From assembly GCF_030295955.1 (NCBI RefSeq), contig NZ_AP027363.1, forward strand, positions 2,953,046 through 3,017,045: a stretch of 64,000 bases of DNA. Direction: 5' to 3'. This DNA comes from Thalassotalea agarivorans (GTDB taxonomy: Bacteria; Pseudomonadota; Gammaproteobacteria; Enterobacterales; Alteromonadaceae). This document shows positions 46,215 to 49,592 of the stretch, in pieces (within the stretch, counting starts at the first letter, position 1; each line of letters opens with the position of its first letter). The position numbers and the translations under genes are program-made. The notes beneath the pieces were generated by a model. It was not told the origin of the DNA and did not search any database. It worked only from the letters and a program-made list of their open reading frames with translations.

Positions 46215-47267
46215 TTAAAAAGGTGAAGGATACTGCTTCAGAAACTGCTGAATGATGTCGAGTTGTTGACTCGACAAGGTTAAATCAAATGCTGCAATAT
46301 TTTCTTCCAATTGGGCAAGTGTTGTGGCGCCAATAATAGTAGATGAAACGCCATTAACATGATTGCACCAAGCCAGTGCGAGTTGTGCAGGCGACATCGC
46401 AAATTGGTTTGCTAGTTCAACAAAAGCTACAACTGCCTGATTAGATTGCTCTGTGTCACGAAACAAGCCATTGCGCTGTAGCATTGACCAGCGGCTCCCC
46501 TTTGGTCTTGCGCCATCAATGTACTTTCCAGTAAGTGCTCCGCCTGCTAGTGGTGACCATGGCAGATAAGCCACATCTTCATGCACACAAGTTTCAATTA
46601 AGTAGGGCCAATCTTTAGTGTGTAGCGCACTAAATTCATTTTGAATCGAAACCATTTTTGGCAGGTTTAAAGACTTAGCTAAGTTCAAATAGGTGTGAAT
46701 ACCCCAAGGAGTTTCGTCAGACAAGCCAACATGTTTTATTTTGCCTTGTTCAATACACAGTTGTAGCCCTTCCAATATATTGGCCATCTCTGCTATTTCT
46801 GCATCTTTAGATGTGTCGGTGAATTTGTAGCTACCGGGCCAATGTCTAGAAAAATGTGGAGAAGTGCGATTAGGCCAATGAATTTGGTACAAATCAATCG
46901 CTTCTACTTTTAACCTTTTTAGCGATGCTTCTACTGCATCAACAACCGCTTGTTTATCTACTGTCTGACCGCCACGAATCCATTTTAAACCTGGACCGGC
47001 TACTTTTGTGGCAAGCACTAGTTGATTGCGTTTCGCAGGATTGCGAGCCAAATAGTCGCCAATGATTTCCTCTGTTTTGTGAGCAGTGGCAGCCGCTGGA
47101 GGAACCGGGTACATTTCTGCAGTATCAATAAAGTTAACGCCGGCATCAAGGGCAAAGTCTAACTGTGAATCAGCATCTTGTTGTGTGTTTTGTTCACCCC
47201 AAGTCATAGTGCCAAGACACACGCGAGAAATCTTTATATTGCTACTGCCCAGTCGACTATACTGCAA
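46215..47267 (-). CDS. tas: NADPH-dependent aldo-keto reductase, Tas-like
   Basis: A 350-residue (beta/alpha)8 reductase. The catalytic Tyr lies in DTAEMYPVPP, the Lys in LATKVAGPG and the His in YQIHWPNR; the C-terminal GATTLAQLEENI binds NADP. Translation most likely starts at TTG 47267: AAGGTGA is correctly spaced from it and the product then begins MQYSRLGSS, like E. coli Tas. A GTG at 47276 would overlap the ribosome site. Transcribed from the NGATCY-N16-CGTAWW promoter at 47312-47339. Confidence 0.9.
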   Translation of the reverse strand: MQYSRLGSSNIKISRVCLGTMTWGEQNTQQDADSQLDFALDAGVNFIDTAEMYPVPPAAATAHKTEEIIGDYLARNPAKRNQLVLATKVAGPGLKWIRGGQTVDKQAVVDAVEASLKRLKVEAIDLYQIHWPNRTSPHFSRHWPGSYKFTDTSKDAEIAEMANILEGLQLCIEQGKIKHVGLSDETPWGIHTYLNLAKSLNLPKMVSIQNEFSALHTKDWPYLIETCVHEDVAYLPWSPLAGGALTGKYIDGARPKGSRWSMLQRNGLFRDTEQSNQAVVAFVELANQFAMSPAQLALAWCNHVNGVSSTIIGATTLAQLEENIAAFDLTLSSQQLDIIQQFLKQYPSPF

Positions 47268-47311: not shown

Positions 47312-47339
47312 TATACGCGCTTTGTTATAACACGGATCT
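47312..47339 (-). promoter_or_regulatory. ECF-sigma-like promoter of the tas-like gene
   Basis: Minus strand: AGATCC, 16-bp spacer, CGTATA. It lies about 45 nt before the start codon and faces the second promoter of the same form at 47404. An inverted repeat AGGATTT / AAATCCT (47354-47388) lies between the two. Confidence 0.6.
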
Positions 47340-47403
47340 AGCCACTATTAAAAAGGATTTGCATGATTTATCTTTCGCGAAAAATCCTAGGCAAGGCGTA
47401 AAC

Positions 47404-47431
47404 CGATCTTTCACCAATTTCATCGCGTATA
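47404..47431 (+). promoter_or_regulatory. ECF-sigma-like promoter of the DUF3429-DCC-SDR operon
   Basis: CGATCT, 16-bp spacer, CGTATA; same spacing as the promoters at 47312-47339 and 49565-49592. The predicted start is about 27 nt before the ATG. Confidence 0.6.
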
Positions 47432-47464
47432 CCTTTTAGGTGATGTCTTTTAGTGGGTGATGTG

Positions 47465-47890
47465 ATGCAGATACATAAAACGTTGGGATACTTAGGCCTT
47501 TTACCCTTCCTATTCGCTATCGCGATGACCCTAACAACAACGACATTGTTTGGTCATTCAGGCGCAACGCTATTTGTCGCTTACAGCGTGGCTATTGCAT
47601 GTTTCCTTTGTGGCACCATGTGGTTGCAACAAAGCCATCAAGAAGAAAACAAACTACCACTCTACAGCAATATACTAACGCTCGTTGCTGCAACTTGCTT
47701 ATTGCTCAGTACCAGTCTTGCTTTGGCTATACTTACGCTGATTTACTTAGCGATTTACGTAATGGAAGTGCGAATTGTTAGATTCAATGAACAGGCCAGT
47801 GGCATAAGCGTTATCGACTACGGCGTTATGCGTTTAACGCTCACTATTATCGTTGTGGCATTGCATCTGGCCATGCAAATATTCACCTAG
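47465..47890 (+). CDS. DUF3429 family membrane protein
   Basis: A 141-residue protein with about five hydrophobic helices (LGYLGLLPFLFAIAM, LFVAYSVAIACFLCGTMW, LALAILTLIYLAIYVME). This pattern matches DUF3429, often found next to photolyase and light-stress genes. Function unknown. ATG 47465 is preferred over a GTG four codons earlier. First gene of a three-gene operon; the next starts 8 nt later. Confidence 0.75.
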   Translation: MQIHKTLGYLGLLPFLFAIAMTLTTTTLFGHSGATLFVAYSVAIACFLCGTMWLQQSHQEENKLPLYSNILTLVAATCLLLSTSLALAILTLIYLAIYVMEVRIVRFNEQASGISVIDYGVMRLTLTIIVVALHLAMQIFT

Positions 47891-47898
47891 GAGGTAGG

Positions 47899-48294
47899 AT
47901 GTTAACATTTTTTTATGACAGCCAATGTCCTCTGTGTGTAAGAGAGGTGGACGCATTAAGAGAGCGGGATAAGTTTAACGACATTAGCTTTGTCGACGTC
48001 CATGATGAGCATGCCATGAAAGCGCATGAAGATATCGACAAAGACCGTGCTTTAAATGTATTGCATGGAAAAATAAATGACACTGTCGTTACTGGATTAG
48101 ATGTTACTTACCATGCTTGGCGCGTGATCGGCTATGGTTGTTTGGTGGCCCCTTTGCAATGGCGATTCACCAAACCCTTGTTTGAGCGAGGCTATACCTT
48201 TTTTGCCAAAAGGCGACACAAAATAGCACGTTTTTTGTATCCTAACGATGTGTGTGAAAATGGCGTATGTGAAAAAGGTTCTCATAATGAGTAA
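47899..48294 (+). CDS. DCC family thiol-disulfide-like protein (DUF393)
   Basis: A 131-residue protein with the family-naming opening FYDSQCPLCVRE (CxxC at the start of a thioredoxin-like fold) and ALNVLHGKIND...GLDVTYHAWRVIG. The tail has two more cysteine pairs (CENGVCEKG). Family function is unproven; a redox role is inferred. It is the middle gene of the operon and overlaps the SDR gene by 8 nt; GGAGG precedes its ATG. Confidence 0.85.
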   Translation: MLTFFYDSQCPLCVREVDALRERDKFNDISFVDVHDEHAMKAHEDIDKDRALNVLHGKINDTVVTGLDVTYHAWRVIGYGCLVAPLQWRFTKPLFERGYTFFAKRRHKIARFLYPNDVCENGVCEKGSHNE

Positions 48295-49009
48295 CCCTCC
48301 ACAGGCACTGGTTATTGGTGCGGGCAGTGCAATCGCTACCAGCCTAATAGTTTCGCTTTTAGACAAAGGTTATGCTGTAACAGCGGTAAGTAGAAAGCCA
48401 GCAAAACAGTTATCATCAAAGGAACTAACCTGGCATGAAACCGAATACACGGACCAAGCTATAGCGCATATCTGCAAGACGATAGCCAGCCAAGACATTT
48501 CTTTTTCCAATATCTTTATCTGCAATGGTCTACTGCACACGCAAGAAGTGATGCCTGAAAAGCAAATCAATCAGTTTTCCTCGGAATCTTTTCTTACCGT
48601 GTTGTCGGCAAATACCTTAACCCCGATGCTTTGGATAAGCCATCTACCTAAATTGCTCACTAAGGGCATTAAGACGGAGGTTGTCATATTTAGTGCTCGA
48701 GTGGGCAGTATCGGCGACAATCGATTAGGCGGTTGGTATAGCTACAGAGCGAGTAAGGCTGCATTAAATATGTTAGTTAAAACTAGCGCTATAGAGTTAA
48801 AACGCCGGTTTAAACAGGCTCAATTTATATTGTTTCACCCCGGCACAACACAGAGCCCGCTTTCTAAACCGTTTACTCAAGGCAGCAACAACAAAACAGT
48901 GTTTACACCCGAGTTCGTTGCTACGCAGCTGCTGTCTATCTTAGAACAAGGACCGCAAAGCGATACTTGCCTCTATTTGGATTGGCAAGGCAAAGCTATC
49001 GATTGGTAG
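48287..49009 (+). CDS. Short-chain dehydrogenase/reductase
   Basis: A 240-residue SDR with a nucleotide loop GAGSAIATS (11-19), catalytic Ser in SARVGSIGDNRLGG and YSYRASK (Tyr-x3-Lys). The C-terminal YLDWQGKAIDW is characteristic of the 'CsgA-like' branch that co-occurs with photolyase and DUF3429 genes. ATG 48287 overlaps the DCC gene; the open frame to 48248 is not needed. Substrate unknown. Confidence 0.87.
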   Translation: MSNPPQALVIGAGSAIATSLIVSLLDKGYAVTAVSRKPAKQLSSKELTWHETEYTDQAIAHICKTIASQDISFSNIFICNGLLHTQEVMPEKQINQFSSESFLTVLSANTLTPMLWISHLPKLLTKGIKTEVVIFSARVGSIGDNRLGGWYSYRASKAALNMLVKTSAIELKRRFKQAQFILFHPGTTQSPLSKPFTQGSNNKTVFTPEFVATQLLSILEQGPQSDTCLYLDWQGKAIDW

Positions 49010-49025
49010 TGCTAATAGACTGCGA

Positions 49026-49250
49026 TTACTTCCATCCGGGCAACCAAACAGTTTTGTCTTTTAACAGTCGCCAATCTATTCGTTGTCGTTGTTGATTTAT
49101 CACGGCTTCAATGTCACAGGCTTGCACAACGTTATCATCATCGACAATAAGTTCGACGACAATAAAATGTTTTTGCTTTTTCACCACTTGTTGGGCTGTC
49201 CATTTGGAATGTAATAAATGTTTTGGGTTAACCACATTTTTTTGTGTCAT
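49026..49250 (-). CDS. TIGR02450 family Trp-rich protein
   Basis: A 74-residue protein with the family pattern NPKHLLHSKWTA, KQKHFIVVELIVDDD, CDIEAVI and WRLLKDKTVWLPGW. Function unknown. It is convergent with the SDR gene and co-directional with the DUF3081 gene 27 nt upstream, probably sharing its promoter. Confidence 0.85.
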   Translation of the reverse strand: MTQKNVVNPKHLLHSKWTAQQVVKKQKHFIVVELIVDDDNVVQACDIEAVINQQRQRIDWRLLKDKTVWLPGWK

Positions 49251-49277
49251 AAGCTAGGCTCGTGAATTGCTGTGCCA

Positions 49278-49532
49278 CTAATGAGAGACAAATTTAACTA
49301 GATGTTTTTCGAATTGAGTAAGATCGTCTTTCAATTCATAGTCAAGGGCGTACTTTCCATGGAACATCAAGGTAAGGAGTACCGTGCGGTACTGGATAAA
49401 ACAGTGATAACCATCAAAGTCAGACCACGCTGAAAAGCCGTTCAAGCGATAGACCTCGCCGTCTTTTTCACCGTAGTCGATGATCTTATTGTACGCCATT
49501 AAGCAGGTCTTTAAATCAAAACTATTTTGCAT
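49278..49532 (-). CDS. DUF3081 family protein
   Basis: An 84-residue soluble protein: YNKIIDYGEKDGEVYRLNGFSAWSDFDGYHCFIQYRTVLLTLMFHGKYALDYE, the DUF3081 layout of Alteromonadales and Vibrio proteins. Function unknown. First gene of a two-gene operon with the TIGR02450 gene, behind the promoter at 49565. Confidence 0.8.
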   Translation of the reverse strand: MQNSFDLKTCLMAYNKIIDYGEKDGEVYRLNGFSAWSDFDGYHCFIQYRTVLLTLMFHGKYALDYELKDDLTQFEKHLVKFVSH

Positions 49533-49564
49533 AAGGCTTCTATTTTCAAATCGGTAATACTCGT

Positions 49565-49592
49565 ATTACGTATATGGGCTGCCGCTAGATCA
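49565..49592 (-). promoter_or_regulatory. ECF-sigma-like promoter of the DUF3081-TIGR02450 operon
   Basis: Minus strand: TGATCT, 16-bp spacer, CGTAAT. The predicted start is about 26 nt before the DUF3081 ATG, matching the leader lengths of the two other promoters of this class. Confidence 0.6.

Follow-up and report, generated by a model that had tools for sequence, protein, structure and literature searches.

A conserved DUF3429-DCC-SDR and DUF3081-DUF2389 gene block in Thalassotalea agarivorans is preceded by putative ECF11 (RpoE-ChrR) promoters

A stretch of 64,000 nucleotides (nt) from the Thalassotalea agarivorans genome (contig NZ_AP027363.1, positions 2,953,046 to 3,017,045; hereafter the window, whose positions are counted from its first letter) carries three sites of the form NGATCY-N16-CGTAWW, one before a tas-like gene, one before a DUF3429-DCC-short-chain dehydrogenase (SDR) operon, and one before the DUF3081-DUF2389 operon that faces it. 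Which sigma factor, if any, reads them? The initial annotation, made from the letters alone, took the sites for a local regulon of an extracytoplasmic function (ECF) sigma factor. We verified the letters, the stated positions, and the identical spacing of all three sites, and we consider it very probable, judging from the sequences, that they are promoters for an ECF11 sigma factor, RpoE, which the zinc-binding anti-sigma factor ChrR restrains; for two sites at the least, this is the best reading. We read them in this way because their letters and spacing equal those of mapped Shewanella RpoE2 promoters and of the Pseudomonas syringae consensus. Indeed, the suggestion that the GATC of the -35 element recalls the TGATCC of RpoE/ChrR sigma factors was borne out, the motif being the published ECF11 one (PMC4336711, PMC5507510, PMC5241685).

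Exactly 16 bases separate the two hexamers at all three window sites. The core word GATCY-N16-CGTAW is expected 0.22 times in the window and was found three times, and none of 100 dinucleotide-preserving shuffles reached three or more per window. When spacers of 10-22 bases were allowed, the window held four GATCY/CGTAW pairs, namely the three N16 sites and one with N13. Measured from the end of the -10 hexamer, the start codon lies 32 nt away for DUF3081 (ATG 49532), 33 nt for DUF3429 if translation begins at ATG 47465 (21 nt for GTG 47453), and 44 nt for tas if it begins at TTG 47267 (35 nt for GTG 47276). Translation of tas probably starts at the TTG, which we favor because many tas relatives begin like MQYSRLGSS.

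An ECF sigma factor of the RpoE/ChrR type, as suspected from the motif, is encoded in the genome. A single ChrR scores above the family cut-off (TIGR02451, 167.4 bits; cut-off, 124.5); a second locus matches only the cupin part of TIGR02451, and weakly. The chrR gene (G000:C1:2713419-2714069) lies ∼286 kb from the window sites (C1:3000357-3002637), and an ECF sigma gene stands directly upstream of it with an 8-base overlap. The best PDB match of this RpoE is the Rhodobacter sphaeroides RpoE-ChrR complex (E = 1e-31), which is also the solved structure nearest to ChrR (E = 2e-17; 2q1z and 2z2s are the best matches). The RpoE-ChrR loci have sigma-70 r2/r4 domains and a ChrR cupin domain (PF12973); ChrR aligns to 2z2s over both domains and keeps the zinc motif HxxxCxxC as HTDMCPIC. 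The operon runs rpoE-chrR-ybgA-SnoaL-SDR-amine oxidase-DUF1365-cfa and, by gene content, is close to the published ECF11 core regulon (PMC4336711, PMC5507510, PMC6852236). It is preceded by TGATCT-N16-CGTATT, 36 nt before the rpoE ATG, so that rpoE-chrR and cfa stand under the same motif, one of the outcomes that the initial annotation had named as support. The word "local" proved too narrow: the window sites would belong to a genome-wide regulon. Among 43 rpoE loci of the family (this genome included), drawn from 69 ChrR genes above the cut-off, 28 have a site upstream of rpoE that matches 10 or 11 of the 11 consensus positions, compared with 7/860 upstream regions whose letters were shuffled. 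The distance from site to rpoE frame is 31-46 nt at 24 of these 28 loci.

The whole genome (3.35 Mb) contains 22 GATCY-N16-CGTAW sites and 15 matches to the reversed pattern. The reversed control is not composition-matched (217 reversed versus 143 pattern sites with variable spacers, and 36 versus 14 for GAACY-N16-CGTAW), and we therefore used the other spacers and the position of sites as evidence. Over all spacers of 10-22 bases the 143 sites amount to ∼10 for each spacer other than N16 (Poisson p = 8e-4 for N16). Intergenic sites make up 14/22 with N16 and 2/42 with other spacers (Fisher p = 6e-7), the latter a sample that covers 40 stretches of the first 1.1 Mb, picked among 100 of the 143 places. 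For nine of the 22 N16 sites a start codon follows at a distance of 10-60 nt (for 10, if a DUF4397 gene is taken to start at its second ATG), while 40/42 sampled sites fall within genes and 1/42 is promoter-like. Site position is thus a stronger sign than site number, and it is also the only feature that separates genomes with chrR from those without. Perfect sites are intergenic in 12/20 cases in two chrR+ genomes and in 1/19 cases in three chrR- genomes; they lie within genes in 8/20 and 18/19 cases, respectively, and in 1/12 cases in this genome.

Relatives carry a similar block, in which DUF3081-DUF2389, with or without CIA30 between them, faces SDR-DCC-DUF3429, with or without a flavin reductase gene, and the motif stands ahead of it. 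CIA30 is often found beside DUF2389, and the flavin reductase beside DUF3429 or DCC. Out of 35 relative loci fetched, 24 were scored; the others (L108-L110 and L112-L119) have no such block, with weak DCC matches in L114 and L115. Sites with at least 10/11 positions precede 12/15 SDR/DCC operons (7/10 genera) and 11/27 DUF2389/DUF3081/CIA30 operons (p = 2e-5), compared with 10/146 other operons of the same loci. These operon counts are uncorrected for two loci that the automatic choice of starts under-calls, L105 (DUF3429 with an 11/11 site 90 nt upstream) and L166 (an 11/11 site inside an over-long frame); 14 of the 24 scored loci are same-genus pairs, and L103 and L172 come from one genome. 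Three relatives (L104, L105, and Colwellia sp. C1TZA3, L257) have a reduced form of the block at a distance of 3-6 kb from rpoE-chrR and beside DUF2878-chalcone-DUF3833. That of L104 consists of DUF3081-DUF2389 and DUF3429-SDR; those of L105 and L257 contain DUF3429, with no DCC or SDR match, and 11/11 sites precede both DUF3429 and rpoE there.

DUF2389 also occurs outside the block in some Shewanella, Pseudoalteromonas, Psychromonas, and Vibrio. Inspection of the DUF2389 genes of 80 named loci showed 15 with a 10/11 or 11/11 site in the 150 nt ahead of the gene, compared with 5/321 control frames. Of the 15, six carry TGAACT as the -35 element. The p value overstates this excess, since near-identical relatives are among the 15 (six Pseudoalteromonas and two identical Shewanella sites) and since just 7-8 nt separate the site from the assumed start in five, each from Shewanella. 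Within the family, DUF2389 is present in 23/79 genomes, that is, in 23/68 with a full ChrR and 0/11 without (p = 0.016). A survey of DUF3429, which mixes paralogue types, returned 30 loci, four of them with DCC and SDR adjoining.

Table 1. Predicted promoters and genes of the block, in window positions
Feature	Position	Strand	Evidence
ECF11-type promoter, tas-like gene, AGATCC-N16-CGTATA	47312..47339	-	10/11 consensus positions; weakest of three
ECF11-type promoter, DUF3429-DCC-SDR operon, CGATCT-N16-CGTATA	47404..47431	+	10/11 consensus positions
ECF11-type promoter, DUF3081-DUF2389 operon, TGATCT-N16-CGTAAT	49565..49592	-	11/11 consensus positions
tas-like aldo/keto reductase, probable start TTG 47267	46215..47267	-	PF00248 E=1e-64
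DUF3429 protein, start GTG 47453 or ATG 47465	47453..47890	+	PF11911 E=6e-17
DCC1-like thiol-disulfide oxidoreductase	47899..48294	+	PF04134 E=2e-24
Short-chain dehydrogenase (SDR)	48287..49009	+	PF00106; best NCBIfam NF006532/PRK09009 under cut-off
DUF2389 / TIGR02450 Trp-rich protein	49026..49250	-	PF09493 E=6e-19; TIGR02450 above cut-off
DUF3081 protein	49278..49532	-	PF11280 E=1e-22

The genes of the block are listed in Table 1. The tas-like protein has NF007912 as its best NCBIfam match, under the cut-off. The likeness of the window SDR to CsgA (C-factor) comes through PRK09009, which we take to be a model of that kind. An AlphaFold prediction of DUF2389 reached a mean predicted local distance difference test score of 84 in the best of five models and 62-68 in the others; a Foldseek search with the model gave weak SH3-like matches, none with E ≤ 0.001, from which no function follows. 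DUF3429 receives a single mention, in a correlation table, in the accessible part of a marine metagenome paper (PMC3597751).

Elsewhere in the genome, motif sites also precede DUF4397 and chalcone-isomerase-like genes near rpoE, a glutathione peroxidase gene (TGATCT-N16-CGTAG, 33 nt before the ATG and overlapping the end of the upstream open frame), and a DUF6482 gene (L002:1501-1817; TGATCT-N16-CGTAA, 45 nt before the start), which is ∼2.3 kb from a lipoprotein-like gene of L003. The latter is one of three genes without a Pfam or NCBIfam match whose starts follow an N16 site at 27-33 nt: L003:1554-2081 (176 amino acids, product lipoprotein-like by eye), L019:947-1467 (174 amino acids), and L036:3112-3651 (180 amino acids, with the weaker GGATCT-N16-CGTAG). 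From their upstream sequences, all three are candidate regulon members. A perfect TGATCC-N16-CGTAT at L014:1501-1600 (G000:C1:2454158) is followed, 45 nt downstream, only by a 78-amino-acid frame with no Pfam family; its transcript may be a small RNA or the mRNA of a small protein. Among the relatives, L104 encodes a protein with five fasciclin domains (L104:10753-12936), preceded by an 11/11 site, in the stretch that separates rpoE from the window-type block, and fasciclin proteins may be further members.

The initial annotation had also named photolyase under the motif as possible support, and here only weaker variants were found: TGAACT-N16-CGTAA (10/11) 31 nt before the start of cryB and TAAACT-N16-CGTAT (9/11) 33 nt before that of a phrA frame. 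GAACY-N16-CGTAW occurs 14 times in the genome; nine sites lie within genes and four are promoter-like. Of the four, one stands before cryB, one before the SnoaL-like gene, and two (L330, L340) before genes without an evident link. The site at the SnoaL-like gene, AGAACT-N16-CGTAT, is 29 nt upstream (L023:6360-6449; G000:C1:2712389-2712414) and is a possible internal promoter of the rpoE operon. In relatives L104 and L105 a photolyase gene, absent from the rpoE operon of T. agarivorans, lies between ybgA and the SnoaL-like gene. Photolyase coding sequence in both relatives contains TGATCC-N16-CGTAA (L104:17313-17337; L105:14546-14570); a coding coincidence of this type would inflate raw motif counts.

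Several results weigh against assigning the window sites to an ECF11 regulon. The first T of TGATCY is missing at two of the three; 15/43 rpoE loci have no site of at least 10/11; on the DUF2389 side such a site is found before 11/27 operons, less than half, and before none of the isolated DUF2389 genes at six family loci (L168, L173-L177); and the counts from relatives are not fully independent, since many of the loci are same-genus pairs. Across 79 genomes, the raw density of TGATCY-N16-CGTAW does not differ between genomes with and without chrR (1.48 versus 1.70 per Mb), and raw counts were for this reason rejected as evidence for chrR dependence. The genome scan that the initial annotation had proposed was favorable in part: N16 is about twice as frequent as other spacers and its sites are mostly intergenic, but the looser GATC-N17-CGTA stays at the level of its control (72 versus 69 reversed). 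A chance co-occurrence of three such words with no common regulator would account for this modest excess, for the unenriched looser pattern, and for the equal raw matches in chrR- genomes; position, spacer, conservation, and the chrR-linked controls speak against it, and we consider it highly improbable. Hardly more probable is regulation by a B12-dependent LitR/MerR repressor with the motif incidental. A MerR-like protein does contribute to the blue-light response of Vibrio cholerae (PMC5241685), but the motif is of the ECF11 form and relatives repeat it with the N16 spacer, and the LitR-type regulator for which the initial annotation had suggested a search did not emerge: the sole PF02310 (B12-binding) match of the genome is in a 1232-amino-acid frame of methionine synthase size, the search being one for the B12 domain and not for MerR proteins that lack it.

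The tas site is where the proposal of a three-promoter regulon is weakest; the DUF3429 and DUF3081 sites are better supported. In the best 29 of 51 other genomes with a match, 0/29 tas orthologues have a 10/11 or better site; wherever both places are known (G020, G033, G038, G052, and G062), tas stands apart from the block; and the first base of the window tas site is A rather than T. Judged by sequence, this site either was gained in the lineage or matches by chance, and tas is a lineage-specific or doubtful regulon member. That only the DUF3429 and DUF3081 sites are ECF11 promoters, with the tas site arising by chance or recent lineage-specific gain in the spacer that tas shares with DUF3429, is therefore a serious possibility, if one we hold to be clearly short of even: the tas site is correctly spaced and placed for a promoter, few N16 sites would arise by chance in 64 kb, and sites with other spacers are almost never in promoter position (1/42 sampled). 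To about the same degree it is possible that the promoters are of the ECF11 type and the signal is organic peroxide, other reactive oxygen species, or nitric oxide, and not light. Organic hydroperoxide raises sigmaE activity in R. sphaeroides (PMC6852236), Shewanella rpoE2 mutants are sensitive to H2O2 and paraquat (PMC4336711), nitric oxide acts through ChrR-RpoE in V. cholerae (PMC11976125), and the rpoE operon here has no photolyase gene; on the other hand, cfa and ybgA in that operon and the weaker site before cryB fit photo-oxidative stress.

We thus favor ECF11 promoters read by RpoE, with induction by light or singlet oxygen suggested by analogy with the family. Singlet oxygen or related light-derived oxidants (alternatively organic peroxide, or nitric oxide as in V. 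cholerae) would inactivate ChrR, and the freed RpoE would direct RNA polymerase to -35 TGATCY and -10 CGTAW elements 16 bases apart. It would raise its own operon, from rpoE to cfa, along with the glutathione peroxidase, DUF4397, chalcone-isomerase-like, and DUF6482 genes and, through a weaker site, photolyase. The DUF3429-DCC-SDR and DUF3081-DUF2389 operons of the window would likewise be raised, and perhaps tas in this lineage. Their products may repair or detoxify oxidized thiols, carbonyls, and membrane products; for DCC, the SDR, and the aldo/keto reductase, roles in thiol and carbonyl repair are suggested by their enzyme families.

The ECF11 system itself is already known; membership of the block looks new. 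In the accessible open-access literature we found no paper linking DUF3429, DCC, DUF3081, or DUF2389 to ECF11, with a listing by locus tag in subscription papers or supplementary tables being possible. We propose tentatively, at somewhat less than even confidence, that the converging block is an unrecognized ECF11 effector module of marine Alteromonadales and their neighbors and that DUF2389 (TIGR02450) is a photo-oxidative stress protein even outside it. The conserved block (DUF3429, DCC, SDR, DUF3081, DUF2389, CIA30, and flavin reductase) gains a likely regulator and a stress condition for testing, which is relevant to relatives of Colwellia, Thalassotalea, and Psychrosphaera. Little-known conserved genes would in this way be tied to the RpoE-ChrR stress response, which elsewhere is known to answer light-driven oxidative damage.

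The closest known counterpart is the RpoE2-ChrR regulon of Shewanella oneidensis, with the same promoter and the same kind of sigma/anti-sigma pair: RpoE2 promoters read TGATCC-N16-CGTATT or CGTAAT, with start sites mapped for rpoE2 and pgpD (PMC4336711). Glutathione peroxidase (there a verified RpoE2 target) and a CsgA-like SDR are common to both, as targets there and predicted targets here, as are cfa and ybgA, and photolyase genes too if the weaker sites here count, though the S. oneidensis SDR follows a photolyase-related gene, unlike that of the window (PMC4336711). The target table of that paper names no DUF3429, DCC, DUF3081, or DUF2389, and it leaves genes of the SO_3386-SO_3374 operon unnamed (PMC4336711). 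The PSPTO_1043/1042 regulon of P. syringae, which responds to singlet oxygen and organic peroxide, has the same TGATCC-N16-CGTA consensus by chromatin immunoprecipitation sequencing; its target table does not name the window gene families (PMC5507510). In V. cholerae the ChrR-sigmaE motif, given in a figure legend as TGATC-N16-18-CGTAW, shares CGTAW with a more variable spacer, and induction of the cry1 photolyase by blue light goes through ChrR-RpoE (PMC5241685); a MerR-like regulator and a nitric oxide response set that system apart from the model proposed here (PMC5241685, PMC11976125). With ECF11 sigmaE-ChrR of R. sphaeroides the present system shares homologous RpoE and ChrR, the zinc motif, the cupin-like domain, and the core genes cfa and amine oxidase (PMC6852236). 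It differs in a non-photosynthetic lifestyle, which we assume from the family. Compared with that regulon, the window genes would fall in the "extended" part, whose genes of unknown function the ECF11 review regards as a source of new biology to be worked out (PMC6852236).

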